A stretch of 60,782 bases of DNA, from positions 1-60,782 of the forward strand of contig NZ_NEWD01000019.1 of assembly GCF_002234915.1 (NCBI RefSeq), written 5' to 3'. A model generated the notes under the pieces. That model saw nothing but the letters and a program-made list of their open reading frames with translations. It made no database searches and was not told the DNA's origin. The position numbers and the translations under genes are program-made. Every line of letters begins with the position of its first letter. Position 1 is the stretch's first letter. Source of the DNA: Bifidobacterium vansinderenii. Lineage in GTDB: Bacteria; Actinomycetota; Actinomycetes; Actinomycetales; Bifidobacteriaceae. Of the stretch, positions 41,490 through 60,714 are shown in pieces.

Positions 41490-41590
41490 AGTCCCAATTA
41501 TTGCAGTGCCGTGTAAATCCCCAAAACCATTCAATGCGCCCCAAGGAAGGAAGACCCCCGAGCACTGCCTCACACGCCCCGTTTCAACGT

Positions 41591-41639
41591 GCTCCCTCCT
41601 CGGGAGGGAGCTGTCACGCAATGCGTGACTGAGGGAGGG
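41591..41639. repeat. Dispersed hairpin repeat unit, last before the mobile element
   Basis: CTCCCTCCTCGGGAGGGAG-TGTCACGCA-TGCGTGACT-GAGGGAGGG, upstream of metA. No further member of the family is found from here to the right end of the window. Confidence 0.8.
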
Positions 41640-41724
41640 CCACAACCCCAAAAACGACACGCCGACAAACCCCAACAATCCCAACGATGTATCACAACAA
41701 AATCCCCCACAGCCACACTCCCGC

Positions 41725-41778: not shown

Positions 41779-41852
41779 CGCGGGGTGGAGCAGCTCGGTA
41801 GCTCGCTGGGCTCATAACCCAGAGGTCCATGGTTCAAATCCATGCCCCGCTA
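41779..41852 (+). tRNA. Initiator tRNA-Met (anticodon CAT)
   Basis: Begins CGCGGGG and ends CCCCGCTA, leaving the C1:U72 mismatch typical of actinobacterial initiator tRNA. The anticodon stem carries the three G-C pairs (GGG/CCC) that mark initiators, with CAT in the loop CTCATAA. CCA is not encoded. The mobile element begins at its 3' end. Confidence 0.95.
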
Positions 41853-43874: not shown

Positions 43875-43875
43875 C

Positions 43876-45114
43876 GTGACCGTGGTGACGATGGTGTGGG
43901 TCCAGAAGAACGTGACCTGCGTGGGCAACGCCACGAAGTCGGTGCTGGCGTATCTGGCGTTCCGCGCGCATTTCGATGACGGGACGGCGTCGTGGCCCGC
44001 GGTGGACACGATCTCGCATGATCTGGGCATCGGCAGGCGCACGGTGCAGCGGGCGATGGATCGTCTGCTGGAGATCGGTCTGATCGAGCTCGGCCAGCAG
44101 GATTTCGCGGGCTTCAACCCGAAGACGGGCGAGCCGGTGCGTCAGGACCGTCGCACGACCGTGTGGAACGTGGTGTGCCGTGACATCCCGTCCGAGGCGG
44201 TCGAGGAGGCCGAACCGGCCGAGTCCTCCCCCGCCGAGGTCGATGCCGAGGATGCAGGCATGTCCGTCGCCGATGCCGTGGACGACGGTGTGATGGAGGC
44301 GCCTGGAACCGGTTCCGGACAAAATGACGCCCCGTGCGTGGAGACTGAACGGGGTGACATTTTGTCCAAAAAGCGTGACATTTTGTCATCAAAACGTGAC
44401 AAAATGTCACCCAATATACATAGAAATACATATAAATACATTTCCCCCTCTGTCCCCCATGGGGACATCTCCCCCTCCGGGGGCGAACCTGGTGATGAGG
44501 GTTCCGTCGATGGCGTGGCCGCCGTTGGCGGGGACCTGGTGGGTTCGTTCCTGGACTGGTTCTCCTCGAGGCGTGCCGAGCTGGGTCTGTCCCGTCGCGC
44601 GTTCTCGGATCGTGACCGTCGCGCGGTCGCCTCGCTGCTGGACCGTCTGACGGCCTCCGGGGCCTCCGATGCGGTGGTCGAGGCGAGGCGGGTGTGCGAT
44701 CACGCGTTCTCCGATGCTCGGCTGGCCCGTCGGGTGTCGTCCCCGCGTCAGCTGGCCCGCCTGTTCGACGAGATCCGCGACGCGATGACGCTCGACGCCC
44801 GTTCCGCCCCGTCCGCCGGCACGTACGGGGTTCCGGACGATCTCGAGCATCGCTGCCGCAGGCTGCTGGACGGTCTGGGCGTCGAGGACGGCAACGACGG
44901 GTTCATGGCCCGCCGCGAGCTGCGCCGGCTGCTGCGCGAGGGCGTCGACGAGGCCGAGGCGCTGCGCGCGGCGTTGGACGCGGGCCTCGCGTATCAGGCT
45001 CGTCTGGACGCCGAGCGTCGCGACCGTGAGGCCGCCCGGAGCCGCCCGGCCGCGTCCGGCGCGTTCCGTCCGTCGTTCGCGGGCAATCCGATGTACCGGG
45101 GGGCCGTCTCATGA
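43876..45114 (+). CDS. Replication initiator-like protein (lambda O type)
   Basis: 412 residues. The N-terminal winged helix-turn-helix (MVWVQKNVTCVGNATKSVLAYLAFRAHFDDGTASWPAVDTISHDLGIGRRTVQRAMDRLLEIGLIEL) resembles the DNA-binding domain of phage O proteins and plasmid initiators. A poorly structured acidic linker follows, then a charged helical C-terminal part from about residue 215 that could contact a helicase or its loader. The linker DNA (44317-44445) contains four palindromic iteron-like sites and an AT-rich tract, the layout of lambda ori inside gene O. GTG at 43876 is chosen because GGAGG lies 9 nt before it; GTG at 43867 is possible. It overlaps the next gene by 4 bp. Confidence 0.65.
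   Translation: MTVVTMVWVQKNVTCVGNATKSVLAYLAFRAHFDDGTASWPAVDTISHDLGIGRRTVQRAMDRLLEIGLIELGQQDFAGFNPKTGEPVRQDRRTTVWNVVCRDIPSEAVEEAEPAESSPAEVDAEDAGMSVADAVDDGVMEAPGTGSGQNDAPCVETERGDILSKKRDILSSKRDKMSPNIHRNTYKYISPSVPHGDISPSGGEPGDEGSVDGVAAVGGDLVGSFLDWFSSRRAELGLSRRAFSDRDRRAVASLLDRLTASGASDAVVEARRVCDHAFSDARLARRVSSPRQLARLFDEIRDAMTLDARSAPSAGTYGVPDDLEHRCRRLLDGLGVEDGNDGFMARRELRRLLREGVDEAEALRAALDAGLAYQARLDAERRDREAARSRPAASGAFRPSFAGNPMYRGAVS
44317..44445. other. Predicted replication origin inside the initiator gene
   Basis: Four sites share the core TGACATTTTGTC, itself a GACA-N3-TGTC palindrome: 44317-44333 (inverted, two mismatches), 44351-44367, 44373-44389 and 44395-44412 (inverted). The last three cores are 21 and 22 bp apart, about two helical turns. 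They are followed by a 35-bp tract (44411-44445) with about 77% A+T in an otherwise GC-rich gene, suited to strand opening. Confidence 0.7.
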
Positions 45115-45536
45115 CCGGCATGGAGCAGGCGTCGTGCGTGCGGGTCGCGGCGCGCAGTCAGGCGTTGGCGGATCAGATGTTCGCGGTCCCGGATTCCGGT
45201 CGTGTCGATCGGCGGGCGAGGCGTGCGGCCAGGAGGCTGTGCGATTCGTGTCCGGTGCGGGACCTGTGTCTGAGCGAGGCGCTGGCCCGTCGCACGAGGG
45301 ACAACGTGCTGGCCGGTGGTCTGACCTATCAGGAGCGGTGCGTGCTGAGCCACGAGATCGCCGCGGATCTGGGCGTGACCCTGTGGGGTCTGGCGTCGGT
45401 GTCCCCGTCCACGGTGCTGGCCTGGCTTCGTGAGCATCCCCGGGCGGTGGAGCGGGCGCGGTCGTGCACCCGCGCCTACTGGCGGGACCGCAAGCGTTCC
45501 TCCAGCGCGGCTCTCGCTCAGGGTCGTCTGTTCTAG
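45111..45536 (+). CDS. WhiB-like iron-sulphur transcription factor
   Basis: 141 residues. Four cysteines fit the Wbl pattern: Cys9, then Cys44, Cys47 and Cys53 (CDSCPVRDLC), ligands for a [4Fe-4S] cluster. A loop AGGLTYQERC stands where Wbl proteins have their Gly-rich turn, followed by basic residues for DNA contact. The tail is longer than in chromosomal WhiB proteins. Wbl proteins occur only in actinobacteria and their phages and mobile elements. It overlaps the initiator gene by 4 bp (ATGA). It may act on ICE promoters with the sigma factor; the target is unknown. Confidence 0.8.
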   Translation: MTGMEQASCVRVAARSQALADQMFAVPDSGRVDRRARRAARRLCDSCPVRDLCLSEALARRTRDNVLAGGLTYQERCVLSHEIAADLGVTLWGLASVSPSTVLAWLREHPRAVERARSCTRAYWRDRKRSSSAALAQGRLF

Positions 45537-45946: not shown

Positions 45947-46019
45947 TCGGGTTCCTCCGGTACGTGCCGTCGTCGGTATTTGGTTTTTGGATTTTTCTGG
46001 TTTTTCAAGGAGTTTGATC

Positions 46020-46610
46020 ATGATCGTGACTATCGCTAACGCGAAGGGCGGGGTGGCGAAGACCACCAGCGCGATGTTTCTGGCCGCGGCGTACGCGCGC
46101 CGGTTCGAGGGTTCGGCGCCGGTGGTGCTGGACGCGGACCCGCAGTCGTCGGCGAGTCTGTGGCGGGATCTCGCCGAGGATGCGGGCGAGCCGTTGGGCT
46201 TCGATGTGTCGCCGGCGAATCTGAGCACGCTGGGCCGGCTCAGCCGCGTGGGCGCGGATTCGTTCGTGGCGGTGGACGCGCCGCCGCAGGGTCGTCTGCT
46301 GGAGACGGCCATCGGGGTGGCGGATTTCGTGGTGGTGCCCTCGTCGGACAGTCCGCTGGATCTGCAGCAGGCGTGGGCGACGCTCGAGGCGGTGCCGCGT
46401 CATCGGCCGGCGGCCCTGCTGCTGGTGCGTGTGGAGCCGGGCACGACGGCGTATGCGAGGACGCTGTCCGCGCTCGGGGACGCGGCCACGCCACGGTTCG
46501 ACGCGGTGGTTCGCAAGCGGCAGGATCTCAAACGGTGCATGGGTCTGCGCCCGGGCAAGCTGTGGGAGTACGGGCAGGTGCTCGACGAGCTGCTGGAGGT
46601 GCTGCGATGA
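46020..46610 (+). CDS. parA: ParA-family partition ATPase
   Basis: 196 residues. The deviant Walker A motif KGGVAKTT is at residues 9-16, Walker A' is VVLDADPQSSASLW, and the Walker B aspartate lies in SFVAVDAPPQG. Proteins of this size (small ParA, Soj/ParF type) segregate low-copy plasmids together with a small DNA-binding partner. The ATG follows AAGGAG. Two overlapping small genes follow, the second of which is a ribbon-helix-helix candidate. For an ICE this implies a stable extrachromosomal phase. Confidence 0.88.
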   Translation: MIVTIANAKGGVAKTTSAMFLAAAYARRFEGSAPVVLDADPQSSASLWRDLAEDAGEPLGFDVSPANLSTLGRLSRVGADSFVAVDAPPQGRLLETAIGVADFVVVPSSDSPLDLQQAWATLEAVPRHRPAALLLVRVEPGTTAYARTLSALGDAATPRFDAVVRKRQDLKRCMGLRPGKLWEYGQVLDELLEVLR

Positions 46611-47547: not shown

Positions 47548-47561
47548 CGGGTTCCCGGTGG

Positions 47562-47591
47562 GGGCCGTGCGGGTTCGCACGGCCCTTTTTT
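47562..47591 (+). terminator. Strong intrinsic terminator before the pilus operon
   Basis: GGGCCGTGC (47562-47570) pairs with GCACGGCCC (47577-47585) over a 6-nt loop and is followed by six T residues. Confidence 0.9.
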
Positions 47592-47607: not shown

Positions 47608-47667
47608 TATGGCGGTATTGCGGTAGGCCGGTTTTTCAGGCTGGGTTTTCTTTTTCGTTCCAAACTC
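47608..47667. promoter_or_regulatory. Shared ICE upstream block, copy 2 (before the pilus operon)
   Basis: TATGGCGGTATTGCGGTA (47608-47625), then GTTCCAAACTC (47657-47667) and a GTGG-TTTTCG-GGTT run. The same succession occurs before the T4SS operon at 56675-56720. It lies directly after a terminator and about 145 bp before the adhesin start, the expected place for a promoter. Confidence 0.6.
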
Positions 47668-47811
47668 TTCCCGTGGTTTTCGCGGTTCCATGGTGCATGG
47701 CCCCTTCGGGGGTCCGCTTCTTTCCTGTTCCGATGTCGAGACGGACCGGTCAGACCGGTCCGCCTCCGGTGGAGGGCGGGGACGTATGGATTTTGGATGA
47801 GAGGGAAGCTC

Positions 47812-49602
47812 ATGGATCTTCGTTGCGGCGTGAGGGCGTGTGCCGCCGGTGTCGCGTTGGCGGCGCTGCTGGCTCCGGTGGGGGCCGGGGCCGCGGAGGG
47901 TTCGACGGCTGGTCAGTGGCTGTCGGTGCGCACGTCCGATGGTTCGTCGGAGGGGATTGATGGTCGTGGTCTGCTGGTGGGGGATGCCGGCGAGTACGAG
48001 GCGTTGCTGGATCTGTCGGGTATGTCTCCGACGTGGCGTGCGGGAGTGGTGCTCGCGTTCGATGCGCGGCATCTGGTCGTGGATGCCTCGACGGTGAGGG
48101 TGTCGGATGGTTCGGGACGGGATGTGACCGATGGTTTCAACGTGCAGGTGTCGGATGGTCGCGTGTACGTGTTTGCCCGGCTGGTGGACACGACGATGGA
48201 GGACGGGACCGTGGTGCCGGCCGGCGCGCAGCCGTCGGATCTGGCCGCGTATGCGGCGTTGGATGGCTCCTCGCATGATCCGTCGCACGATCCGGGCGTG
48301 GACCGGTCGCTGGCCGGAGGTTCGTATCGGGTTCGTGTGCCGTGGCGGGTGACGGGCGTTACGGGGAATGGTTCCACGGCTCGAGCGTCGATGACCAGGA
48401 TCGTGGACGCGGATCGCGGCGACGGGAACGCCGTGTCGAATCCGTTGGCGCGTGTGGAGCCGGATCGTGACGCGGTCATGACGGTCGGCGGGGATTCCGT
48501 GGACGGCATGTCGGTGTGGAGGGATTCGTCGTTCCTGTATCGGATGGATTCGGGCGTACTGTCCGCGGATCGTGCGACGTCCGTCTCGTCGTGGCGCGTG
48601 GACTCGAATGTGGATCCGGGCGTGGACCGGCTGACCGGCCGGTGGGCGGTGTATGCGGCCCGTGACCTGTATGGCATGGATGGTTCCATGCTGGCGGCCA
48701 AGGGATCCCGGATCGGCGGCGACGGCATGGACTCGTCACGCTTCGGCGGCGACCTGTTCACCGCGAGTGTGGATCCGGGGTCCGGGACGACGCGAGTGGA
48801 GGCCACGGACCTGTACCGGCGGCTCGTGAATGCGAATCCGGGTCGGGAGGCCGCCTGGCGCGCCTACGCGCAGGCCACACGGATCGCGGTCTCCGACAGG
48901 GTGGACTGGCGGTTCACCGCGACGCTCAACGGACAGTCGACGCGCAGCGCGTCGGCGTGGACCCGTACTCCCGACGCGACGCCCACGCTGCGTGTGGAGT
49001 CCTGGGACGCGCGCAGCGGTCGCGAGTCCGGGGACCGGGATTCCTCGACGGATGCTCTGACGGGCGTGAAGGACGGGGAGCGGATCGTGTTCACGGTCAC
49101 GAACACGAGTTCGGACGCGTGGTTCCGCGCCTCGGACCTACATTTCTCGGATCGGGCGGTCGTCGGCGACGGCGCGGTCACGGGGCTTGAGCACCCGTCC
49201 GGCTGGGATTCGCTGCTGCTGGCTCCGGGTCAGAGCGTGGACGTGACGGGCCGGCTGCAGGGGTTCACCCAGGGGCGTCATACCGGCAGGACGACGGTGT
49301 CGGCGCGCCCCCTGACCGAGTGTCCGTCCGACGGGGACATGGCCGGTCGGGTCGAGGCGGGCGGTCGATCGTTGTGTCTGGACACGACGGTGACGTCCGC
49401 GTCCGATGACTGGTCCGGGATGCGTGCCGGCGGGCGGACGACCAGGCTCGCGGCGACCGGGGCCGCGATCGTCAACATGGTCGCCGCGATGGCCACGGCC
49501 ACGGCCGGCGGCGTGCTGTTCCTCCTGTACCGGCATGGCAAACGGCTGGAATCCCCGCCCGGTCACGGCCGGGAACCGGAGCCGCATGACGGAGACCGGT
49601 AG
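47812..49602 (+). CDS. Surface adhesin, AgI/II (PrgB-like) isopeptide-domain type, LAATG tail
   Basis: 596 residues with a signal peptide (VALAALLAPVGAGA). The long middle region contains stretches of the kind seen in the isopeptide-forming C-terminal domains of streptococcal antigen I/II and the enterococcal aggregation substance PrgB: FLYRMDSGVLSADRATSVSSWRV, LTGRWAVYAARDLY and FRASDLHFSD-type strands. Residues 546-550 read LAATG, followed by a hydrophobic helix and RHGKR, a non-standard sorting signal (Ala for Pro). About 22 further residues follow the basic stop, longer than usual for a sortase substrate, so simple membrane anchoring is an alternative. ATG at 47812 has GAGGG 6 nt before it. 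It is the first gene of the pilus operon. Confidence 0.65.
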   Translation: MDLRCGVRACAAGVALAALLAPVGAGAAEGSTAGQWLSVRTSDGSSEGIDGRGLLVGDAGEYEALLDLSGMSPTWRAGVVLAFDARHLVVDASTVRVSDGSGRDVTDGFNVQVSDGRVYVFARLVDTTMEDGTVVPAGAQPSDLAAYAALDGSSHDPSHDPGVDRSLAGGSYRVRVPWRVTGVTGNGSTARASMTRIVDADRGDGNAVSNPLARVEPDRDAVMTVGGDSVDGMSVWRDSSFLYRMDSGVLSADRATSVSSWRVDSNVDPGVDRLTGRWAVYAARDLYGMDGSMLAAKGSRIGGDGMDSSRFGGDLFTASVDPGSGTTRVEATDLYRRLVNANPGREAAWRAYAQATRIAVSDRVDWRFTATLNGQSTRSASAWTRTPDATPTLRVESWDARSGRESGDRDSSTDALTGVKDGERIVFTVTNTSSDAWFRASDLHFSDRAVVGDGAVTGLEHPSGWDSLLLAPGQSVDVTGRLQGFTQGRHTGRTTVSARPLTECPSDGDMAGRVEAGGRSLCLDTTVTSASDDWSGMRAGGRTTRLAATGAAIVNMVAAMATATAGGVLFLLYRHGKRLESPPGHGREPEPHDGDR

Positions 49603-49895
49603 ACGAAGCCTCCCCGGAGTCGTCTTCCCCGGCTTCGGGGCACCCGGGCCGTCGGATCTCTTCCTCCCGGCGGCCGTTCATTCTTCCCGCGCCACCAGGC
49701 GCGGGCGCAGGGGCGGGCCGGCAGCGGCGGCGTGACACGCACGCTGGCCCTCCCCGTCCACCACGACCCGATCAGGAAAGGAGCCTATCCACACCGATCA
49801 TCATCCCGCCGTCCCCGATGGGGCGGCATCCACGCATATGCAACAACGACAAGCGGGCAGGCCGTGTGGTCTTCCCGAGGAAAGAGGAAATCATC
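49603..49895. other. Gap between adhesin and backbone pilin, with hairpin
   Basis: CCCGCGCC (49686-49693) pairs with GGCGCGGG (49698-49705) over ACCA, without a T tract. It could partially terminate transcription or protect the downstream pilin mRNA. No ORF is credible. Confidence 0.5.
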
Positions 49896-51425
49896 ATGAG
49901 CAACAACCTTCGCCGTATCGTGGCCCCGACCGTCGCGGCCTTCGTCGCCGCCGCCGCTCTCGGCACCGGCGTTCTCTCGGCCAACGCTGCCGATGGCGGT
50001 CAGGCCGCGGCCGCGAACGCGACCATCACCCTGAGCGCGGCGTCCGGCGATCTGGTCGGCCACACGTTCGACGTGTACCGCGTCGGCTCCTACACGAACT
50101 ACGGCAACTGGAACAACGACGCGGACGGCAAGATCGACTCCACCGACGTCGTCAACGCCAATCAGGCCGCCACCGACTGGCTCAAGGCCGCCGGCATCAA
50201 GGCCGATCAGGCCACCGGCCACGACGAGGCCGGCACGATCGCCGCCGGCAACGCGCAGGCCGCCCGCAGCGCGGCCGCAGCCCTCGCCGCGGTCAAGAAC
50301 AAGCCGCAGGCCGTCAAGTCCGGCATCGCCGTCGCCGCGGATGCGAAGGACAAGACCACCCTGACCATCGGCGGTCTCGAGGAGGGCTACTACCTCGTCG
50401 TCGATTCCGACGGTCTGCCCCTGCTCGTCGGCACCAAGATCGGCGGCCATGATCTCGACACGCAGACGCTCGGCGTCGCCGTGGTCAAGTCCACCATCCT
50501 GTCCGTCTCCAAGGACGGTGCGGGCGACTCCACGATCGGCGCGACCGTGAGCTACACGGTCAGCTTCAAGGTCCCGGACAAGAACTCCAACCCGAAGAGC
50601 CTGTCCTACGAGGACGTGGCCACCAACCTGTCCGTCAACCAGGACTCCATCAAGGTCAAGGTCGGCGACGGAGCGGCCGCCGCCCCCGCCCAGGGCACCC
50701 TGACCATGAAGGACGCCAACGCCGGCTTCACTTACAACGCGACCGGTCTGCTGACGGATGCCAACTACGGCAAGCAGGTGACCATCACCTACACCGCGGT
50801 CGTCCTCGGCGAGGATCCGTCCAACACGGGTACCGTGCACGCCAACCTCGACGGCACCGACCACACCGGCACCACGCCCGAGGGTCCCGTCACCCTCGCC
50901 AACTTCGACTTCAAGATCCATAAGACCAACAACGATGGCACGGTCGCGCTGAAGAACGCCGGCTTCACCATCAAGGCCTCGGACGGCAAGTACATGAAGT
51001 TCGCCCAGGGCAAGTGGACCAAGGTCGACGCGAAGGACGACCAGGCCGCCGTCGCCGCCGGCGCGGAGACCAAGACCAACGACCAGGGCTTCCTCAGCTT
51101 CGCCGGTCTGGGCGATGGCACCTACACCGTCACCGAGTCCACCGTGCCGGACGGCTATCTGAAGACCCCGGCCCAGTTCACCATCAAGATCGACAACAAG
51201 GCGCACACGGGCGTCGTCACCGGTACCGGCGCGAACAACGGGCTGACCCCGAACGTGACCATCAAGGACGGCGGCCAGGTCGAGGTCCACAACCTCAACA
51301 GCATCACCCAGCTGCCGCAGACCGGCGCCGCTGGCGTGTACGTGCTCGCGGGCACCGCCGCGCTCCTCGCCCTCGCGGGCGGCGCGACCTACGCCCTCAA
51401 GCGCAAGCAGCAGCCGGCCGCCTGA
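49896..51425 (+). CDS. fimA: Major (backbone) pilin with LPQTG sorting signal
   Basis: 509 residues. Signal peptide to about residue 31 (VLSANA-AD), then an N-terminal pilin domain and a C-terminal Cna-B/SpaA-like domain. The E-box YTVTESTVPDGYL marks intramolecular isopeptide formation. The sorting signal is LPQTG at 473-477, a hydrophobic helix (VYVLAGTAALLALAGGATYAL) and KRK. Codon use is strongly biased to C-ending codons, a mark of high expression. AGAGGAAA precedes the ATG at 49896. The sortase gene follows at once. fimA is used in the bifidobacterial and actinomycete sense; the subunit is polymerised outside the cell. Confidence 0.85.
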   Translation: MSNNLRRIVAPTVAAFVAAAALGTGVLSANAADGGQAAAANATITLSAASGDLVGHTFDVYRVGSYTNYGNWNNDADGKIDSTDVVNANQAATDWLKAAGIKADQATGHDEAGTIAAGNAQAARSAAAALAAVKNKPQAVKSGIAVAADAKDKTTLTIGGLEEGYYLVVDSDGLPLLVGTKIGGHDLDTQTLGVAVVKSTILSVSKDGAGDSTIGATVSYTVSFKVPDKNSNPKSLSYEDVATNLSVNQDSIKVKVGDGAAAAPAQGTLTMKDANAGFTYNATGLLTDANYGKQVTITYTAVVLGEDPSNTGTVHANLDGTDHTGTTPEGPVTLANFDFKIHKTNNDGTVALKNAGFTIKASDGKYMKFAQGKWTKVDAKDDQAAVAAGAETKTNDQGFLSFAGLGDGTYTVTESTVPDGYLKTPAQFTIKIDNKAHTGVVTGTGANNGLTPNVTIKDGGQVEVHNLNSITQLPQTGAAGVYVLAGTAALLALAGGATYALKRKQQPAA

Positions 51426-51507
51426 CATGCGCGCCCTCCCGCCCGACACGGCCCGAGAGGGACATGACGAACGGGAAAGACAACGCATGGACCACCGGGA
51501 GGGACGA

Positions 51508-52464
51508 ATGGACGACTTCTACGAGATCATCCATCCGTCCCTCTCGCGCATCGAGCGCCGCCGTGAGCGACGCCGGCGGGTCCGTGACCGGATCCTCACC
51601 GCCGCGACCGCGCTCCTGTTCGCCGCCGCCACGCTTGTCGTCGGCATTCCGGCCGCGCAGAGCGTGGGGTTCGCCGCCGACCAAAGCCAGACGACGCAAC
51701 GGCTCTCCGACGCCATGGACGCCATGGACTCCGCGCGTCGCACCCGCATGCTTACGGCCGCCGACGCGTACAACCGGCGTCTCGCCCGGACCGGCCAGCC
51801 GATCATCGGCGAGGCGGCGGACCCGTTCAGCGGCAAGGCCACCGGGGATTTCACCGGGAGTGATGATCCCGACTACGAGCGGACCCTCGACACCGGTCGG
51901 GGGGTCATGGGGTCGATCAGCATCCCGAAGATCGGCGTTGACCTGACCATTCGTCATGGCAGCGGCGCGCAGGCGCTGGAGACCGGGATCGGTCATCTGC
52001 ACGGCACCAGCCTGCCCGTGGGAGGCCCGTCCACGCATGCGGCGTTGACCGGTCATCGCGGTCTGCCCAACGCGGAGCTGTTCACCCGGTTGGACGAGAT
52101 CCGGTTGGGAGACCCGTTCTATCTGCACGTGCTCGGCACGACGCTTGCCTACCGGGTGACCGATATCCGGGTCGTCGACCCGGACCAGGTCGACAGTCTG
52201 AAGATCGTCCCGGGCAAGGATCTGGTCACCTTGGTCACGTGCACCCCGTACGGCGTGAACACGCAACGGCTCCTCGTCACCGGCGAACGCGCCCGGATCG
52301 GTGTTCAGGTGCCGGCCGAGGCGGATGCGCCCGGCGACGCGCGGCCGCTGCTCGCGGCCGGGGTCGGCCTGCCCCTGATCGTCGGCCTGCCGCTGGCCCG
52401 CCGTGCCAGCCGGCGTGAGACGCCGCAGCATCATTCCACCAGAAAGGAAAGCAGCACATCATGA
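51508..52464 (+). CDS. srtC: Class C (pilin-polymerising) sortase
   Basis: Joins pilin subunits by transpeptidation between the sorting-signal Thr and a pilin lysine. The 318-residue protein has a membrane helix at 30-52 and a second at about 279-298, as class C sortases do. The lid motif DPF is at 105-107. The catalytic triad is His183 (TGHRG), Cys245 (TLVTC) and Arg254 (NTQRLLV). The start at 51508 (MDDFYEIIHPS) has GGGAGGG before it; the frame opens at 51427, but that start is poorly supported. It overlaps the tip protein gene by 4 bp. Confidence 0.93.
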   Translation: MDDFYEIIHPSLSRIERRRERRRRVRDRILTAATALLFAAATLVVGIPAAQSVGFAADQSQTTQRLSDAMDAMDSARRTRMLTAADAYNRRLARTGQPIIGEAADPFSGKATGDFTGSDDPDYERTLDTGRGVMGSISIPKIGVDLTIRHGSGAQALETGIGHLHGTSLPVGGPSTHAALTGHRGLPNAELFTRLDEIRLGDPFYLHVLGTTLAYRVTDIRVVDPDQVDSLKIVPGKDLVTLVTCTPYGVNTQRLLVTGERARIGVQVPAEADAPGDARPLLAAGVGLPLIVGLPLARRASRRETPQHHSTRKESSTS

Positions 52465-54449
52465 GAACAATGTTTTGGAAACGGCCTGCAGCGGCCCTGG
52501 CCGGCATCGCATGCCTCGCCATGCCGTTGGCCGGCCTGATGGCGGTTCCGGCCGTCCAGGCGGCGGACGCCTCCTGTTCGGGCTACGACCGTCCCGCCGG
52601 CAGCGACACCGACATCAACGTCAAGCTGCCCGTGTGCGATACAAGTCTGCCCGTCACCGTCGCTCCCCAGGGCGGGACCATCGCCGGCCAGATCCACGGC
52701 AAATACACCAACTTCGAGTTCGACACACAGTCCATCGGCATGGACACCGTCAAGTTCGACGCCAACTGGACCCACGGCAACAGCGGCATGGTCGACGGCG
52801 CCATCGAACAGCAGATCCCCACCAAGATCGGCGCCTCGTTCACCGTTCCCGATCTGGGCACGTGGATCGCCGGCAACGGCCTGCCCCAGACCGTGAGCGC
52901 GAAGTTCACCGTCACCGAATGGAACGGCGGCTCCGTCCGCTGGTACCATCTGGGCGGCGACAACAACCCGGTGTACGAGAAGGGCCTGACGTTCGCCGCC
53001 GACGCCGGCATCAAGCTCCTGCAATGCGCGAACGGACAGCCCACGGGCTGCGGTACGGGATATTCGAAGGACTCCCCCCAGCCCGCGTACGACGCCGCCA
53101 AGCGCAACGGCCTGACCCTTCAGGTCGACTTCCTCGACCAGAACGGCCAGCCGATCCAGGTGTCCGGATACACGGCGTTCGAGAATCTGGACGGTGACCG
53201 GTACGGCCTCTGGTGGGGCGGCGACCCCGACAATCTGAAGTGGGACCCCTACCTGCACGTGGGTATCGAGCCCCTGCAGGGCTTCGACCAGCTGATCCTG
53301 CCCTCGACCGGCACGTCGACCGGCGATCTGACCCGGTTCGGGCGCAACGGCATCGCCGGCGACAAGACGTTCGCCTACACGTACGACGCGAACTTCCCGA
53401 GGCCGAACAATCCCAACGACCTGTATGATCACAGGGACACCACCAACGATCAGGCCCTGGCCGAGTCCAGTCAGGCGTCCCACCGGTTCGCCGCCCTGTT
53501 CGACGCCACGAGCCTGACCTTCAGCTACACGAGCGGCCAGGAGGGTGCGATGACCATCGGTTCCGACGCGGTCGAGAAGGACAGCTCCCATCAGGTGTCG
53601 TGGACTGCGGTCGATCAGAACGGCAACACGCTGCCCGGGCTGACGAACCAGACCAGCGGGTTCACCACCGCCGCCGGCAAGGATCTGGACGCGACCAAGG
53701 TCGTCTACGGCACCCAGTGGAAGCTGGCCACGCCGAAGGCCCCCGAGGGGTACACGCTCGAGAAGGTCACCGGCGACGCGACGTCCAGCAGCACGCAGGA
53801 TCCGAATACGGTCGCGTCCGGCACCATGGGCGCGCGCAACCAGGCCGTCGTCCTGCATTACCGGGCCGCGTCCAGCCGCATCACCTTCCAGCCCGGTGAT
53901 CCCAAGGTCACCGGCAGCATCAAGCCTCTAGACGGGTACGTCGGCGACCAGGCCACCCTGCCCGACGCGACCGGCTACACGTGGGACCACCACACGTTCA
54001 CCGGGTGGAAGGATCCGGACGGCGGCGACCACAAGGCCGGCGACAAGATCGACTACCCCAAGGGAGGCCTCACCCTCACCGCCCAATGGCGCACGTGGAC
54101 CTACACCGTCCGCTATGAGAAGGGCGCGGATGATGCGACCGGCAGCATGGGCGACCAGGCCATGACGTTCGACCAGTCCGCCAGGCTCACCGCCAACGGG
54201 TTCAAACGATCCGGATGGCGATTCACCGGCTGGAAGGACCAGAACGGCAAGACCTACCAGGACGCGCAGGAGGCCACCAACCTCGCCTCCAATGACGGCG
54301 AGACCGTCACCCTGACCGCCCAATGGGCACGAACCGGCACCAGCACCCTGCCCTCCACCGGAGCGGCCACGGGACTGGGCGTCCTGCTCACGGCCGGTCT
54401 GCTCACGGCCGGCGGCATGATCGCACGCCGCATGCGCCGAGTCCGGTAG
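52461..54449 (+). CDS. Pilus tip/minor subunit with InlB-type repeats and LPSTG signal
   Basis: 662 residues. Signal peptide (ALAGIACLAMPLAGLMAVPAVQA), a large N-terminal adhesive region with six cysteines or so (CSGYD, VCDTS, LQCANGQPTGCGTG), and two C-terminal repeats of the Listeria-Bacteroides/InlB B type (YTWDHHTFTGWKDPDGG...LTLTAQW and GFKRSGWRFTGWKDQNGK...VTLTAQW). The sorting signal LPSTG is at 630-634 with a hydrophobic helix and RRMRR. Its start overlaps the srtC stop (ATGA). Position and size suggest the adhesive tip of the FimA pilus; the ligand is unknown. The operon terminates just after it. Confidence 0.8.
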   Translation: MRTMFWKRPAAALAGIACLAMPLAGLMAVPAVQAADASCSGYDRPAGSDTDINVKLPVCDTSLPVTVAPQGGTIAGQIHGKYTNFEFDTQSIGMDTVKFDANWTHGNSGMVDGAIEQQIPTKIGASFTVPDLGTWIAGNGLPQTVSAKFTVTEWNGGSVRWYHLGGDNNPVYEKGLTFAADAGIKLLQCANGQPTGCGTGYSKDSPQPAYDAAKRNGLTLQVDFLDQNGQPIQVSGYTAFENLDGDRYGLWWGGDPDNLKWDPYLHVGIEPLQGFDQLILPSTGTSTGDLTRFGRNGIAGDKTFAYTYDANFPRPNNPNDLYDHRDTTNDQALAESSQASHRFAALFDATSLTFSYTSGQEGAMTIGSDAVEKDSSHQVSWTAVDQNGNTLPGLTNQTSGFTTAAGKDLDATKVVYGTQWKLATPKAPEGYTLEKVTGDATSSSTQDPNTVASGTMGARNQAVVLHYRAASSRITFQPGDPKVTGSIKPLDGYVGDQATLPDATGYTWDHHTFTGWKDPDGGDHKAGDKIDYPKGGLTLTAQWRTWTYTVRYEKGADDATGSMGDQAMTFDQSARLTANGFKRSGWRFTGWKDQNGKTYQDAQEATNLASNDGETVTLTAQWARTGTSTLPSTGAATGLGVLLTAGLLTAGGMIARRMRRVR

Positions 54450-54464
54450 TCGACGCACCACATG

Positions 54465-54514
54465 ACGGGTTCATCCCCTCACCGGTTTCACGGGGAGGAG
54501 GATGAACCCGTTTT
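54465..54514 (+). terminator. Intrinsic terminator of the pilus operon
   Basis: ACGGGTTCATCC (54465-54476) pairs perfectly with GGATGAACCCGT (54500-54511), followed by TTT. Together with the terminator at 47562 it makes the four pilus genes a closed transcription unit. Confidence 0.9.
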
Positions 54515-55202: not shown

Positions 55203-55559
55203 TCACCTCTTCCCGATGACCATGGTCTCCGTGGATTCCTCGGGTGTTATTCCGTAGTAGGCGTTGTAGGCGGCTTCGGCCTCGTCCCGGCCGCCGAGGC
55301 CGATCTCGTATCGGATCTCAGCCTCGAGGAAGTGACGGAAGTCATCGTCGATCTCCGTATTCTTGCCGAGTTCTAGGTCCATGATCCGTTGGACGGCGTC
55401 CGGCCTGCCGAGGAACGGCTTCCAGCGTTTCCTCGATCGTTCGCCGATCCGGACGATGGGGTGTCGCCGTTCGTCGTTCATGTCTCCGTGATCGGGGCGG
55501 AGGGGGATATGGCCGGCCCTGCCGTGGTCTTCTCCATCCTCCCCTGTTTCTCCTGTCAT
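55203..55559 (-). CDS. Hypothetical partner of the HNH-like protein
   Basis: 118 residues. The N-terminal third is disordered and acidic/His-rich; the rest is helical (MDLELGKNTEIDDDFRHFLEAEIRYEIGLGGRDEAEAAYNAYYGITPEES). No family known to me. Its ATG overlaps the stop of the upstream HNH-like gene by 4 bp (ATGA), so the two are made together. It could be an immunity, regulatory or effector partner; nothing in the sequence decides. Confidence 0.6.
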   Translation of the reverse strand: MTGETGEDGEDHGRAGHIPLRPDHGDMNDERRHPIVRIGERSRKRWKPFLGRPDAVQRIMDLELGKNTEIDDDFRHFLEAEIRYEIGLGGRDEAEAAYNAYYGITPEESTETMVIGKR

Positions 55560-56572
55560 TCTCGTTCGGCCTCCCGGGTGATGAGGTCGTCGATGGCCTT
55601 GTCGGTCGCGTTGGGCGTGGTGCGTGCGAGGTCCGCTCCCATCGCGTTCAGCAGCATGGTGGCCCGCCCGGCGTTTGCCAGCTGGGAAAGCTGTTTTCCC
55701 TTCCGGATGGAGGGGATGGCGCCGAATGTATCGGGCGTGGGTGGCAGGTAGCAGGTTCTCGTTCTGATCGGCTTGCCGGGTTCCACGAGTGTATGCCCGT
55801 ATTGGCTTTTCAGCATGTTCCTGGTCTTGTCAGGCAGTCCGGTGCCGTCGGGCATGAACAGGATCACGAGGCTGAGGTCGCCGAACTTGAACTGCGCCGA
55901 GTGACGGCAGGGGATGTCGAGCGGCTCGTCCTTCCCGCCGTCGCCGAACATGGCGGTGATCGAGGTGAGGATGTCGATGTCGCGGTCGCGTGTCATGGGG
56001 AATCTGGGGGTGGCGTAGCGTCCTGCGAGGATGAGTATCCTGTCGTCCGGGTGGTCCATGTCGAGATGTCGTATCCAGTCGAGGCGGGGGTTGATGGTCC
56101 CGTCGCCGGGTTCGGGGAATTCGGCGCCGAGGAACGACCGGACCTGCGGTCCTTCGCTCATCAGGTGCAGCGCGTTCCAGACGTATTTCGTCAGCGTCTT
56201 CTGCAAGAGGACGTAGTCGTGGCATATCGTCGTCGTGTCGGCGGTGCGGTCCTTGCATTGTCTGGTTCCGTTCGGGATGTTGGCCCGCGGGTTGGCGATG
56301 TGACGGGCGAGCATGTCCTTCATGTAGTCGTCCAGGTATGAGCTGGCGGTGTTGCATTGCCGTCCGATCGTGACGGTCGGGTCGCCCGAGTAGGTGAGTA
56401 TGGTGTTCGGCTGCCTGCCGGTCCGGGTGTAGTCGAGGGTCGTTCGGCTGTTCGGATAGAGGTCGAGCACGGCCTTAGAGATCACGTGTTCCTGTGACCG
56501 ATGTTCGTTCGTGCTGTGGCAGTACGGGCATTCCCATTGGTTTTCCTGCGGCTTCTTCGTCTTTTCTGTCAT
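55556..56572 (-). CDS. HNH-endonuclease-like protein
   Basis: 338 residues. The N-terminal zinc-type motif is CPYC (Cys15, Cys18), then EHVISKAVLD with Glu28-His29, and later GRQCNTASSYLDD. This is the order of the HNH_5 group (CxxC, EHxIP, CxxCN), with the first Cys of the second pair missing. The C-terminal 230 residues are of mixed structure without a recognised domain. The ATG at 56572 follows AAGGAAC; the frame runs on far upstream but with no support. It sits with its coupled partner against the direction of the two flanking operons, as cargo genes often do. Nuclease activity is a prediction. Confidence 0.6.
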   Translation of the reverse strand: MTEKTKKPQENQWECPYCHSTNEHRSQEHVISKAVLDLYPNSRTTLDYTRTGRQPNTILTYSGDPTVTIGRQCNTASSYLDDYMKDMLARHIANPRANIPNGTRQCKDRTADTTTICHDYVLLQKTLTKYVWNALHLMSEGPQVRSFLGAEFPEPGDGTINPRLDWIRHLDMDHPDDRILILAGRYATPRFPMTRDRDIDILTSITAMFGDGGKDEPLDIPCRHSAQFKFGDLSLVILFMPDGTGLPDKTRNMLKSQYGHTLVEPGKPIRTRTCYLPPTPDTFGAIPSIRKGKQLSQLANAGRATMLLNAMGADLARTTPNATDKAIDDLITREAERE

Positions 56573-56674
56573 GGTGTGTTCCTTTCTATCGGCGTCCTTG
56601 TCGTCGTGTCCGTTCCATCGTATGTTGGTTTGCCTGTTTCGGTCGGCCGGTGTTCGGGTTTTTCGGTGTTGCGG

Positions 56675-56720
56675 TATCGGGGTATCGCGGTGTGGGGGTT
56701 GGGTTTCGTGTTCCAAACTC
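56675..56720. promoter_or_regulatory. Shared ICE upstream block, copy 3 (before the T4SS operon)
   Basis: TATCGGGGTATCGCGGTG (56675-56692) and GTTCCAAACTC (56710-56720) followed by GTGGGTTTTCGGGGTTGG. The same two blocks in the same order stand before the pilus operon. It is 78 bp before the first T4SS gene. Confidence 0.6.
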
Positions 56721-56797
56721 GGTTGTGGGTTTTCGGGGTTGGATGGATGGTGGCGGCCGCGTGTGTGGTCGTTGAGTCCAGTGAAAGGAAGTGGTTT

Positions 56798-57100
56798 ATG
56801 TTCGGTTTTGGTCCCAGTGAGGCGGATCTGCTGTCGGGTGCGCTGCCGCAGGCGGCCGCTCCCGCGAATGCGCCGGTGGTGCTGGCCGCGGCGGATGGCA
56901 ACCAGCTCACGTCGAATGTGTTGGATCTGTTCGTCACGGCCGCCACGCTTGGCGGCGGCGCGTGGACGGTGTGGGGCGCGATCACGTTCGCGGCCGGTCT
57001 GAAGGATCAGAACGGCCCGCAGACGCAGTCGGGCCTGTGGCAGGCCGTGGGCGGCATCGTGATCCTGGCCGCGGCGCAGCTGTTCAAGGCCCTGGCCTGA
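56798..57100 (+). CDS. Maff2-like membrane protein of the conjugation operon
   Basis: 100 residues. A polar N-terminal part precedes two hydrophobic segments (VLDLFVTAATLGGGAWTVWGAITFAAGL and GLWQAVGGIVILAAAQLFKAL). The GGGAWTVWGA...GLKDQNGPQTQSGLWQAVGGI pattern resembles Maff2-family proteins that precede the VirB6-like gene in Gram-positive ICEs, possibly the counterpart of a VirB2 pilin. AAAGGAAG precedes the ATG at 56798. It is the first gene of the T4SS operon. Confidence 0.7.
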   Translation: MFGFGPSEADLLSGALPQAAAPANAPVVLAAADGNQLTSNVLDLFVTAATLGGGAWTVWGAITFAAGLKDQNGPQTQSGLWQAVGGIVILAAAQLFKALA

Positions 57101-57113: not shown

Positions 57114-57959
57114 ATGGAGGATTGGCTCATTGGCCTGTTGAACACCATCGGCAATGGTGTGTCGCAGGATATGGTGTCTCGGCTGCTGCAGACGCCGGCC
57201 GATTTCAACCATGACTTGTATGACCTGTCCCTGCGCGTGGCGGATACCGCCGTGAAGCCGATGGCGAGCATCGTGCTCGCCATCGTGTTTTCGATGGAGC
57301 TGGCGCGCGTGTCCACGAAGGTGGACGCTGATCGTGAGCTGGGCATGAAGATGGTCGCGGCGGCGATGCTGAGGATCGCGATCGTGTTCACTCTGGCGCA
57401 GAACAGCGAGCTGCTGTTGAAGGCGGTCGACGAGATCGGCTCATCGATGATGTCGGGGTTCACGTCGGCGGCGCCCACGGAGGGTGCGACGAGCACGATG
57501 GGCCTGGGCGACGCGATGGCGGATCAGATCAAGGATGCGGGTTGGGCCGGTCAGGCGGCGTGCATGGTGCTGCTGATCATTCCGTTCGTGGTGTCGCAGG
57601 CCGCGTCGATCGTGTTCACGGTCGTGATCCTGCTGCGGTTCGTGCAGTTGTACATGATGACGGCGTTCAATCCGCTGCCGGTCGCGTTCTGCGCGCATGA
57701 GGAGACGAAGGCGTGGGGCATCGGCTATTTCAAGCAGTACGCGGTACTGGTTTTCCAGTGCGCGACCCTGTATCTCGCGGTGATCGTGTATCGCGTGTTC
57801 GTGAAGAACGTGCTGACGATGGACGGGTTCAAGGAGGGCGACAGTCTGCCGGGGTGGATCATCTCGAATTTCGGGAATCTGCTGTTGGCGTCGGTGTTGC
57901 TGATCGGCATCGTGATGGTCGCGAACGGCGTGGCCAAGAAGCTGTTCGGCGGCGAGTGA
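57114..57959 (+). CDS. VirB6/TrbL-like T4SS membrane protein
   Basis: 281 residues with about six membrane helices, among them MASIVLAIVFSMELARV, AACMVLLIIPFVVSQAASIVFTVVILLRFVQLYMM and LLLASVLLIGIVMVANG. The conserved stretch MMTAFNPLPVAFCAHEETKAWGIGYFKQYAVLVFQCATLYLAVIV is typical of VirB6-type channel proteins of Gram-positive conjugative elements. It starts 13 bp after the Maff2-like gene. It should form the inner channel of the secretion apparatus. Confidence 0.82.
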   Translation: MEDWLIGLLNTIGNGVSQDMVSRLLQTPADFNHDLYDLSLRVADTAVKPMASIVLAIVFSMELARVSTKVDADRELGMKMVAAAMLRIAIVFTLAQNSELLLKAVDEIGSSMMSGFTSAAPTEGATSTMGLGDAMADQIKDAGWAGQAACMVLLIIPFVVSQAASIVFTVVILLRFVQLYMMTAFNPLPVAFCAHEETKAWGIGYFKQYAVLVFQCATLYLAVIVYRVFVKNVLTMDGFKEGDSLPGWIISNFGNLLLASVLLIGIVMVANGVAKKLFGGE

Positions 57960-57971: not shown

Positions 57972-58319
57972 ATGGCGTTGCAGATGCCGGTGTACAGGGA
58001 GATCAGCGCGATCGAGTCGAAGGTGTTCCTGGGATTGTCGTGGCGTCAGCTGTTGGCGGCGTGCGCTCTGGCGGTGGTGTGCGGCGGCTCGTATCTGCTG
58101 TTGTGGATCGTGGCCGGCCTGCCGTCGGATCTGTGTATGTATCTGATCTTCCCGCCGGGCATTCCGATCGCGATGTGGGGGTGGTGGCGTCCCCGTGGTC
58201 TGATGCCCGAGCGGTACGCGCGTTACCTGTGGAGGCATTACGCGCATCGGAACGTGTATTTGCTGGATGGTCCGTCGCGCCGGTTCGTCACGCCGGCCCG
58301 GCCGTCGTTGAAGGAGTAG
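57972..58319 (+). CDS. PrgI-family (VirB3-like) T4SS protein
   Basis: 115 residues. The N-terminal QMPVYREISAIESKVFLGLSWRQLLAACALAVVCGGSYLLLW is the PrgI signature, giving two membrane helices. A basic cytosolic tail follows. PrgI (pCF10) and VirB3 proteins tie the VirB4 ATPase to the membrane channel, and the gene is placed directly before virB4 as usual. AGAGGAG precedes the ATG. Confidence 0.88.
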   Translation: MALQMPVYREISAIESKVFLGLSWRQLLAACALAVVCGGSYLLLWIVAGLPSDLCMYLIFPPGIPIAMWGWWRPRGLMPERYARYLWRHYAHRNVYLLDGPSRRFVTPARPSLKE

Positions 58320-58323: not shown

Positions 58324-60714
58324 GTGTTCGAGTTTCTTGGGAGGAAGGGTGATGCCGCGGCAGCGCGCGGGAAGGCGCGTGAGCGGGCGCGGTCGAGCGG
58401 GAGGATGCCCGCGAGCGTGAAGACGCTGATCGGGTTCGATTCGATGCTGCGCAACGGGATCGCGTTCCTGGGCGATGACCGGTGGAGCGCGTCGATGGCG
58501 TTCACGGATATCAACTACCAGTTGGCGCCGGAGCGGCATCAGATGGAGATCATCGATCATTGGGCCAAGATGCTGTCGGGGTTCGAGGGCGGTCAGGACA
58601 TCCAGATCGGCTTGTACACGAGGACGCGTGGCATCGATGACGTGCTGTCGGATGTGCGGATGGAGGATCGTGGCGACGGCCTGGATCGGTGGCGTCGCGA
58701 CTACAACGATCTGGTGGGCTCGAAGCTGGAGACGGCGTCGAGGAACACGGAGACGGTCAAGATCCTGACGTTGACGATCGAGGAGCATGATCGTGACGCG
58801 GCGGTGACCACGCTCAACGGCCTGTGCAATTCGGTCGCCGCGCAGCTGAACGCGATCGACGGGTGCCGGGCGACCCGGCTGAGCCGTGAGCAGCGTCTGG
58901 CGCTGATGTCGGAGATCCTGCGTCCGGGTGAGGATTTCACGTTCAACGAGCGTACGTTCCATCATCTGCAGGGTCGGCCGGACATCAAGGATCTGGTGTG
59001 TCCGTGGATGATCGACGCGTCGAGGGCGTCGACGCTGCGCGTGGAGTCCCTGGATTCGGGGTTCTGGCATCGGACGCTGTGGATCTCGGGCCTGCCGCCG
59101 GAACTGTCGGACCAGCTGATCAACGAGCTGACGGGGTTGCGTGCGCGGGTGAACGTGAGCGTGCATCTGGCGCCGTATGATCGCGGCGATTCGCTGACGA
59201 TGGTGCGTCGCAAGGGCGCGGAGATCAAGATGCAGGTGATGGAGACGCGCCGACAGAACCGTCGTCAGGGCCTGGACCCGGATGATCTGCCGGATGATCT
59301 GGCCGACCAGCAGACGCAGATCGGTGATCTGCGTGACGAGCTGCGTCGCACGAACCAGCGTCTGACGAACGCGATGATCGTGATCGGCGTGAGCGCGGAC
59401 AGCGAGGAGGCGCTGGAGCATGCGGTCAGTCAGGTGCGCACGCGCGTCAACGCGCAGTCGTGCAAGGCGGAGTCGCTGTCGTTCATGCAGATCGAGGGTC
59501 TGGTCGCGGAGCTGCCGTTGGGCAACAATCCGCTGCCGATGAAGCGGACGCTGACGACGAATTCGGCGTCGATCCTGATCCCGTTCACCACGCAGGAGGT
59601 GTATGAGCCGTCGGGCATCTTCTACGGGACGAACACGAAGACGGGCAATCCGATCGTGGCGGACCGGCGCGCGCATATGAACTCGAACGGTTTCATCCTG
59701 GGCACGTCGGGCGGCGGCAAGTCGTTCAGTGTCAAACAGGAGATCGGTTCGATGTTCCTCAACCGTGACGACGACGTGATCATCATCGATCCGGAGCGCG
59801 AGTATCTGGCCCTGTGCGAGGCGTTCGGCGGGCAGATCGTGGAGATCAGCGCGGGCGGCCATCAGTGCATCAACCCGTTGGACATCGTGCTGGACGAGAC
59901 CGGCGACGTGGATCCGATGAAGACGAAGACGAACAATCTGGTGTCGATGATCGGTTCGCTGGTCGGCGGCAACACGGGTCTGACCGCGGTGGAGAAGAGT
60001 CTGGTGGACCGGTCGGCGTTGGGTCTGTACGTGCGCTGGCGTGATTCGGGGTCGTCGTTGCAGCCGACGCTGGGGGATCTTCGCGACGCCCTGGAGGCGA
60101 CGGGCGAGGATGCGGGCCATCTGCTGGCGGTGAGTCTGGACGCGTACACGTCGGGTTCGCTCTCGGGGTTCTCGGGGCAGACGAACGTGGACATGACCAA
60201 CCGCATGACAGTGTTCGACGTGAGCGCGCTGACGGGCGAGCTGCGTACGTTCGGCATGATGGTGATCATCGACCAGGTGTGGAATCGCGTGCTGAGGAAC
60301 CGTGCGGCGGGCCGTCGCACGTGGCTGTATGTGGACGAGTTCCACCGGTTTTTCTCGAACGGGTACGCGTCGGCCCAGTTCCTGGACATCTACAAGCGCG
60401 CCCGCAAGTACGGTCTGGGCGTGACGGGCATCACGCAGAACATCGAGGAGCTGCTGATGGACGACGGGGCGAGGCTGATGCTGTCGAACTCCGATTTCCT
60501 GATGCTGCTGACGCAGAACGCGTCGGACGCGGACGAGCTGTGCTCGCTGCTGAAGCTCTCGGAGGAGCAGCGCTCGTATTTCACGAACGTGATGCCGGGT
60601 CAGGGTCTGATGAAGATCGGTCCCGCGTATGTGCCGTTCGACGGTCGTATCCGTGACGACAGTCTGCTGTACGGCCTGTACACGACGAGCTTCGACGACA
60701 GGGAGTCCAGGTGA
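58324..60714 (+). CDS. VirB4/TraE-family T4SS ATPase
   Basis: 796 residues, starting at a GTG 4 bp after prgI with GGAG overlapping the upstream stop. The C-terminal half is a hexameric ATPase: Walker A GTSGGGKS at about 460-467 and Walker B RTWLYVDEFHRF near 665. ITQNIEELL is the conserved sensor region. The N-terminal half is the membrane-associated domain that meets VirB3/PrgI. It energises assembly or substrate export in conjugation. The stop overlaps the next start (GTGA). Confidence 0.94.
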   Translation: MFEFLGRKGDAAAARGKARERARSSGRMPASVKTLIGFDSMLRNGIAFLGDDRWSASMAFTDINYQLAPERHQMEIIDHWAKMLSGFEGGQDIQIGLYTRTRGIDDVLSDVRMEDRGDGLDRWRRDYNDLVGSKLETASRNTETVKILTLTIEEHDRDAAVTTLNGLCNSVAAQLNAIDGCRATRLSREQRLALMSEILRPGEDFTFNERTFHHLQGRPDIKDLVCPWMIDASRASTLRVESLDSGFWHRTLWISGLPPELSDQLINELTGLRARVNVSVHLAPYDRGDSLTMVRRKGAEIKMQVMETRRQNRRQGLDPDDLPDDLADQQTQIGDLRDELRRTNQRLTNAMIVIGVSADSEEALEHAVSQVRTRVNAQSCKAESLSFMQIEGLVAELPLGNNPLPMKRTLTTNSASILIPFTTQEVYEPSGIFYGTNTKTGNPIVADRRAHMNSNGFILGTSGGGKSFSVKQEIGSMFLNRDDDVIIIDPEREYLALCEAFGGQIVEISAGGHQCINPLDIVLDETGDVDPMKTKTNNLVSMIGSLVGGNTGLTAVEKSLVDRSALGLYVRWRDSGSSLQPTLGDLRDALEATGEDAGHLLAVSLDAYTSGSLSGFSGQTNVDMTNRMTVFDVSALTGELRTFGMMVIIDQVWNRVLRNRAAGRRTWLYVDEFHRFFSNGYASAQFLDIYKRARKYGLGVTGITQNIEELLMDDGARLMLSNSDFLMLLTQNASDADELCSLLKLSEEQRSYFTNVMPGQGLMKIGPAYVPFDGRIRDDSLLYGLYTTSFDDRESR

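Follow-up and report, generated by a model that had tools for sequence, protein, structure and literature searches.

The DNA analysed here (the window) is a stretch of 60,782 nucleotides of the Bifidobacterium vansinderenii genome (contig NZ_NEWD01000019.1, denoted C11 below), which consists of chromosomal DNA as far as a tRNA-Met gene, followed by the left part of a predicted integrative and conjugative element (ICE) that runs until the contig end at 60782. The subject of this analysis is a unit of four co-directional genes of the ICE (47812-54449) that encode an antigen I/II (AgI/II)-type surface protein, a backbone pilin, a class C sortase and a tip-like protein; a gene for a ParA-like protein is located 5' of the unit, and the gene for VirB4, the ATPase of a type IV secretion system (T4SS), is located 3' of it. 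The unit and the strong hairpin terminators on both its sides are as follows:

47560-47587, plus strand: terminator upstream of the unit (hairpin, z -3.7)
47812-49602, plus strand (open reading frame, ORF, from 47797): AgI/II or aggregation-substance C-terminal stalk with LAATG anchor
49896-51425, plus strand (ORF from 49818): backbone pilin with LPQTG, E-box and candidate pilin lysine K198
51487-52464, plus strand: class C sortase (TLVTC in the active site; ORF from 51427, true start uncertain)
52461-54449, plus strand: tip-like LPSTG protein with List_Bact/InlB-type repeats
about 54465-54514, plus strand: terminator downstream of the unit (hairpin followed by T, z -5.4)

The pilus locus

The original prediction, made from the letters of the sequence, of an adhesin, an LPQTG pilin, a class C sortase and an LPSTG protein at 47812-54449 is borne out, and profile and motif searches give the four proteins sharper identities. 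The same prediction described the genes as one transcription unit between two strong terminators; both terminators stand, but the single unit is put in doubt by a GC-rich, hairpin-containing gap of 293 bp between the adhesin and pilin genes (49603-49895) and by a break in codon usage at the same place. The terminator scan found no terminator in this gap, although it also overlooked the downstream hairpin (54465-54514), which came from a separate folding z-score analysis; the gap has no 9-mer in common with the regions upstream of the adhesin, virB2, parA or repA genes. The predicted placement between partition genes and the T4SS operon is right as to the ParA-like gene upstream and VirB4 downstream, but two minus-strand ORFs (55203-56575) intervene between the unit and the T4SS genes.

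The adhesin matches the Pfam profiles Antigen_C (PF16364, E = 2e-52) and AgI_II_C2 (PF17998, 1e-21), ends with LAATG, a membrane segment and a basic tail, and has PrgB, which serves plasmid pCF10 as its conjugation adhesin, as its top PDB match (8beg, E = 1.3e-16). It contains a single C2 domain that starts at residue 48, with little protein ahead of it, whereas the four large relatives that were scanned (G059, G006, G154 and G020a) have two or three C2 stretches each, the one adjoining Antigen_C beginning at residue 430-1210. No GbpC/V head (PF08363) was detected in the stalk or the tip protein at E 0.1; the four large relatives yielded no GbpC match at E 0.01 either. Because the PF08363 head was not found and little protein precedes C2, the protein is, by its predicted domain content, a short stalk of the AgI/II family without the head-bearing part, not a full member of that family.

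The pilin contains a SpaA domain (2e-14), an LPQTG signal and an E-box, and matches the SpaH/EbpB profile NF033902 (1.5e-17) under the cut-off of that profile; E414 and K198 (in the 509-aa form) do not vary among 4 pilins, one of them from B. aerophilum, the lysine being assigned by alignment only. The sortase scores 238 bits with the class C profile NF033745 (cut-off 160), has the TLVTC...R catalytic motif and matches PDB entry 2xwg best (4.6e-48). Together, a sortase with its catalytic motif and a pilin with an LPxTG signal, E-box and lysine identify a predicted class C pilus operon. The fourth protein has a signal-peptide-like start, LPSTG and List_Bact/InlB-type repeats that score under the cut-off; its N-terminal part has no Pfam match at E 0.1, nor does the protein as a whole match anything in PDB (E 1) or PHROGs (E 0.01). 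Outside the window element and its two closest relatives (below), the best relatives among the 189 genomes of the family that were searched reach about 50% amino acid identity for the sortase and 37% for the pilin. The tip protein is matched along its length in only 3 of these genomes (the window genome, B. callimiconis and B. tissieri), the other matches being two weak partial ones in one 2056-aa ORF of genome G180 and, elsewhere, matches to the repeats only. The window genome encodes five sortases that we could find, one of class E and the rest of class C.

The parA-virB2 interval in related elements

VirB4 proteins of the same kind (CD1110 family) are encoded in 48 of the 189 family genomes at E 1e-100 (65 matches including the window), and we typed 54 loci besides the window (53 of the 64 other VirB4 matches and one in G074); the counts cover the stretches that were retrieved, some of which stop short. 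An AgI/II-type adhesin is present on the retrieved stretch at 31 of the 54 loci (two of these matches are 210-aa pieces at the locus edge, and five lie some 9 kb upstream of virB2, at loci where parA was not detected), and the region upstream of virB2 encodes, in many of the related ICEs of bifidobacteria, an AgI/II-family adhesin that is much larger than that of the window. A class C sortase was detected in 3 of the 54: B. callimiconis 2028B (G002), B. tissieri DSM 100201 (G007) and B. aerophilum TRE17 (G121; these names, and that of G160 below, were inferred). The elements of B. callimiconis and B. tissieri, the two closest to that of the window, have the same arrangement, and the gene order is kept in all three.

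Other class C pili occupy this interval in the ICEs of B. aerophilum and of B. miconisargentati 82T25 (G160), in the latter beyond the stretch first retrieved. The element region of the latter begins 2.6 kb from a tRNA-Leu gene and shows the order repA, whiB, parA, an RHH-like gene, an AgI/II gene (1303 aa), two ORFs, a pilin gene (LPNTG), a class C sortase gene, an ORF, a List_Bact protein gene (MPETG), cargo, and virB2-virB6-virB3-virB4. The nearest relative of its sortase is another sortase of the family, at 55% identity, compared with 41% to that of the window. In a sortase tree of 32 rows, the B. aerophilum ICE sortase groups with two loci outside its ICE interval (L286 of G149, and L283; support 100/99); the window clade is separate (100/99), but it is joined with the B. 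aerophilum group and plasmid pMP7017 at 96/84, with long branches and a warning. The class C pili in this interval apparently represent three independent cases. Class C pili near VirB4 but outside the interval, in G145 (26 kb downstream) and on contig C10 of G128 (38 kb), were left out of the counts.

Several further arrangements were encountered around these loci. In 9 of the 54 typed loci (L045, L102, L104-L107, L109, L113 and L114), a SpaH/EbpB-family pilin gene is located just ahead of the AgI/II adhesin gene, with no sortase match on the retrieved stretch (the L045 pilin, 570 aa with LPLTG, scores 117 bits against a cut-off of 95); such pilins might either be without a polymerase or be served by a host sortase. 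Putative sortase genes lie close to virB2 in elements of B. biavatii and B. miconisargentati (L098, 9971-11140, class E-like with 141 bits against a cut-off of 160; L099, reversed, 14608-15804). In B. aerophilum, a second operon of pilin, tip and class C sortase is located just past the ICE integrase-like gene (L283, 29-3913), and in G158 a class C sortase is encoded about 21 kb from a VirB4 gene whose product is 30% identical.

A motif shared with the transfer genes

The regions upstream of the pilus unit and of the T4SS genes share a 25-bp motif, TTCCAAACTC-N7-GGTTTTCG, of which the window contains two exact copies, compared with none in 100 shuffles:

47658-47682, plus strand: copy 1, upstream of the adhesin gene, ending 129 bp before its start
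56711-56735, plus strand: copy 2, upstream of the T4SS genes, ending 62 bp before virB2

With up to 2 mismatches allowed, these are the only two copies in the whole 3.11-Mb window genome; B. callimiconis has two in the same places, and B. tissieri has one, an exact copy before virB2, along with a degenerate copy before the adhesin gene. At the same stringency no copy was found in the 6 other genomes of the genus that were searched, and a reversed-pattern control also gave none. The upstream regions of parA, the adhesin gene and virB2 additionally have GGTATGGCGGT/GCGGTATCGG-like repeats in common. Among the newly obtained evidence, the motif, which is evidence from sequence only, speaks most strongly for counting the unit as part of the transfer programme; the two copies could also have arisen by duplication of an upstream region.

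Codon usage and divergence

In a leave-one-out comparison of codon usage, each of the 8 tested core genes of the ICE, including that of the stalk, groups with the ICE (+0.02 to +0.31 per codon), whereas the chromosome side holds 23 of the 25 chromosomal gene calls of the window. Codon usage shifts sharply at the adhesin-pilin gap, and the contrast in third-position C between the stalk and pilus genes is also seen in B. callimiconis and B. tissieri. Because the codon usage of the stalk gene is ICE-like and that of the pilus genes chromosome-like, the pilus is probably a module acquired behind a native ICE gene, which would make the unit composite.

Between the window and B. tissieri, the synonymous divergence (dS) is 0.27-0.46 for the pilus genes, 0.19-0.32 for the T4SS genes and 0.51 for the AgI/II gene, and the ratio of nonsynonymous to synonymous divergence (dN/dS) is 0.32-0.47 in the pilus genes, compared with 0.05-0.29 in those of the T4SS; dN/dS of the four genes against B. 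callimiconis is 0.06-0.14. Judging from the dS of the pilus genes beside that of the T4SS genes, the pilus is not a recent guest of the element. A recent transfer of the ICE between the window genome and B. callimiconis, considered on account of the low dS (0.01-0.21 by gene, compared with a pooled chromosomal value of 0.18), was dropped because codon bias confounds this measure.

The integrative and conjugative element

The pilus had been predicted to be mobile, and the organization of the surrounding element agrees. The last 41 bases of the tRNA-Met gene (41813-41853) constitute the core of attL, and this repeat recurs on contig C16 of the window genome (7559-7602; 44 bp, 98%), where attR adjoins a tyrosine integrase gene. 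Contig C5 of the window genome carries genes for a relaxase and a VirD4-like protein that are 83% and 92% identical, respectively, to those of the B. tissieri element; the VirD4-like protein belongs to the CD1115 family (441 bits against a cut-off of 250), and the relaxase is of the SAG1250 type (2.7e-25, under the cut-off). We infer that C5 joins C11 and C16 in one element. In B. tissieri, the whole element is contained in contig C1 (about 39.8-84.6 kb, from tRNA-Met to attR at 84517-84557; 41 bp, 100%), with VirB4, VirD4-like protein, relaxase and integrase, and the flank beyond attR continues like the unoccupied site of genome G001. An integrase with direct att repeats at a tRNA gene, together with a relaxase, a coupling protein and VirB4, points to a complete set of ICE hallmarks. 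Other features of the element in the window, beyond the unit described above, are:

41779-41853, plus strand: tRNA-Met (ARAGORN)
43867-45114, plus strand: replication-initiator-like protein (HTH_36, 1.7e-7; PHROG replication initiation, 2.6e-11)
45111-45536, plus strand: WhiB-like regulator (PHROG WhiB, 8.6e-9)
46017-46610, plus strand: ParA-like partition ATPase (AAA_31, 3.7e-10; ParA_partition, 1.6e-26, under the cut-off)
55203-56575, minus strand: two-gene cassette outside the pilus (118 and 339 aa)
56798-57100, plus strand: VirB2-like small membrane protein (label from gene order only)
57114-57959, plus strand: VirB6/TrbL-like protein (PF04610, 1e-6)
57972-58319, plus strand: VirB3/PrgI-like protein (label from gene order only)
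58324-60714, plus strand: VirB4 ATPase, CD1110 family (NF045971, 861 bits against a cut-off of 325)

The VirB2-like and VirB3-like proteins have no NCBIfam match; the order of the T4SS genes (small protein, VirB6-like, PrgI, VirB4) is the same as in the annotated plasmid pARLON1. A search of IMG/VR for VirB4 produced no confirmed relative. The two overlapping ORFs of the minus-strand cassette sit between the pilus terminator and the T4SS copy of the motif; in the 339-aa ORF, a CPYC zinc motif is accompanied by a stretch, EHVISKAV, of HNH-like appearance. The cassette has no PADLOC or PHROG match and only sub-threshold Pfam matches; it is present in B. callimiconis and was not found in the B. 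tissieri locus, where the gap is shorter. On the chromosomal side, short sequences around 40341-40460 and 41571-41690 belong to a dispersed repeat family with 58 and 74 matches in the window genome and B. callimiconis, compared with 3-16 in the other 7 genomes.

Comparison with known systems

Sortase pili on mobile DNA are already known, so that the 'undescribed system' of the original prediction was too strong a term: a class C sortase is encoded in 226 plasmid records (E 1e-20), 49 of which are typed conjugative, and there are precedents in individual elements, as follows. The Lactococcus lactis plasmid pSH74 carries spaCB-spaA-srtC1-srtC2, and overexpression of this pilus cluster raised the transfer of another plasmid up to 22-fold (PMC5152845); Enterococcus plasmids likewise carry pilin clusters with a class C sortase. 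The B. breve megaplasmid pMP7017, described as the earliest conjugative plasmid of the genus to be characterised (PMC10832533) although typed non-mobilizable in PLSDB, encodes a pilin, an InlB-repeat protein, a class C sortase, a CAP protein and HigA, the same gene series as the B. aerophilum ICE. These plasmid pili differ from that of the window in that no AgI/II stalk is present in the clusters inspected and their sortases are less than 60% identical. Chromosomal pilus loci of bifidobacteria, described as flanked by transposon elements and as horizontally acquired (PMC3231923), resemble the window in combining a major pilin with an E-box, a class C sortase and a minor pilin, but are distant in sequence among the family genomes searched.

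Plasmid p_CNU_G2 of the rumen streptococcus S. ruminicola (L176, 12016-17009) shows a similar succession of ParA, a small ORF, a SpaH/EbpB pilin, a class C sortase and a third surface protein, which has a GbpC head (PF08363, 9e-19) and SpaA, possibly making this a pilus with a mating-adhesin head. In sequence, this third protein has no meaningful similarity to the window tip (best E 0.08 over 46 residues). The same plasmid also carries T4SS-type genes and a SEC10/PgrA surface-exclusion gene. The window stalk shares with PrgB of pCF10 and antigen I/II the AgI_II_C2 and Antigen_C domains, a sortase-type anchor and a location on a conjugative element close to the transfer genes; it differs in the lack of a detected GbpC head, in LAATG in place of LPxTG, and in the pilus operon behind it. 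In the SpaABC pilus of Corynebacterium diphtheriae, the base SpaB has LAFTG, the shaft and tip have LPLTG, and the housekeeping sortase anchors the fibre (PMC12445094). The LAxTG/LPxTG division is the same in the window, but the LAATG protein is an AgI/II stalk, likened to SpaB by its sorting signal only. No description of a sortase pilus in a bifidobacterial ICE was recognised in the open-access literature searched, which is weak evidence of absence. The parts of the locus are ordinary; their combination and place are unusual.

Competing explanations

Conjugation in Gram-positive bacteria is thought to use single-chain surface adhesins, not sex pili of the Gram-negative type. The mating-adhesin role suggested in the original prediction has indirect support only, from the PrgB/AgI-II-type stalk encoded first in the unit, from an interval in which related ICEs often have a large adhesin of that family, and from the 25-bp motif held in common with the T4SS genes. 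Given the conserved position in three species, the AgI/II stalk and the motif, we tentatively favour, at not quite an even chance of being right, a reading of the unit as a surface-adhesion module of the ICE, with the pilus recruited to its mating-adhesion module. The class C sortase would polymerise the LPQTG pilin into a fibre tipped by the LPSTG protein, and the one class E sortase of the host would anchor both the completed fibre and the LAATG stalk. Such a fibre would be made when the transfer genes are on and would supply the long-range contact between donor and recipient that the missing adhesin head would otherwise give; it may bind to surfaces of the host as well. That the stalk is the pilus base is a guess from analogy. 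A more specific proposal is a dedicated covalent mating pilus, in which the adhesin head is replaced by the sortase-polymerised fibre, the LAATG stalk serves as a SpaB-like wall base, the tip is a new kind of recipient-binding head, expression is tied to that of the transfer genes by the 25-bp motif, and pili were recruited to the slot at least three times; we consider this rather unlikely.

Several observations weigh against a role of the pilus in transfer. The expectation that it would stand at the same place in ICEs with the same VirB4 holds for the two nearest elements (2/2) but fails for those with 72-73% identical VirB4 (G154, G145 and G164; 0/3), so that a T4SS of this kind does not need a pilus. 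The 48 genomes with this VirB4 encode 172 class C sortases, about 1.3 per Mb, and by a rough estimate about one would fall by chance in the ~10-kb intervals of some 65 elements, compared with the three apparently independent cases, so that recurrence alone is weak and only suggestive; the sortases of the window clade, of the B. aerophilum group and of pMP7017 may also go back to one mobile source. The motif is missing from the upstream regions of the B. aerophilum element, which share only scattered 9-mers. For the tip, neither PDB nor PHROGs yielded a known relative, and the AlphaFold model is poor (mean pLDDT 36, from a 3-sequence alignment). In PrgB, single deletions of stalk domains and changes at the conserved site of the head gave no rescue of conjugation (PMC10588982), and a headless stalk, accordingly, either needs a partner or has lost its mating role; it may do nothing.

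Part of the same evidence fits an ordinary bifidobacterial sortase pilus that hitch-hikes in the cargo interval of the ICE and, without contributing to transfer, binds host glycans or mucus, an explanation that we consider a serious competitor, not far below the favoured one in likelihood. The pilin (-0.27 per codon), the tip (-0.18) and, slightly, the near-neutral sortase (-0.03) fall on the chromosome side in codon usage; class C sortases are common, at least one being encoded in 47 of the 48 VirB4-bearing genomes. The tip evolves fast, and the pilus as a whole evolves faster than VirB4 (76% amino acid identity for the tip, 94% for VirB4), as would be expected of host-facing cargo, too. The interval holds other cargo, namely the minus-strand cassette here and, in B. 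miconisargentati, genes that are presumably kdp-like. A strain of Propionibacterium freudenreichii with a genomic-island pilus bound mucus (PMC5644110). Against this explanation, the three pilus genes stand behind the stalk of a conjugation adhesin and a T4SS-type motif, and a close relative of the pilus is found nowhere else in the 189 family genomes.

If the stalk alone served mating, the pilus genes could be unrelated neighbours with their own promoter and a separate fate, as the GC-rich, hairpin-containing gap and the sharp codon-usage break at it might suggest. The order, however, is kept in all three near elements, the succession of AgI/II, pilin, sortase and tip recurs in B. miconisargentati, the gap shares no 9-mer with the four upstream regions compared, and the scan (which did overlook the hairpin at 54465) found no terminator in it; we therefore regard this explanation as unlikely. 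A degraded or silent remnant, to which the shortness of the adhesin next to its relatives might point, is very improbable in view of the four frames, all open in three species, and of the dN/dS values (0.06-0.14 with B. callimiconis and 0.32-0.47 with B. tissieri).

Implications

If the pilus is indeed part of the mating-adhesion module of the ICE, it would show that covalent pili can act as organelles of mating, and that pili for colonisation can spread jointly with gene transfer. Since the closest elements reside in named Bifidobacterium strains, the question is open to direct testing.

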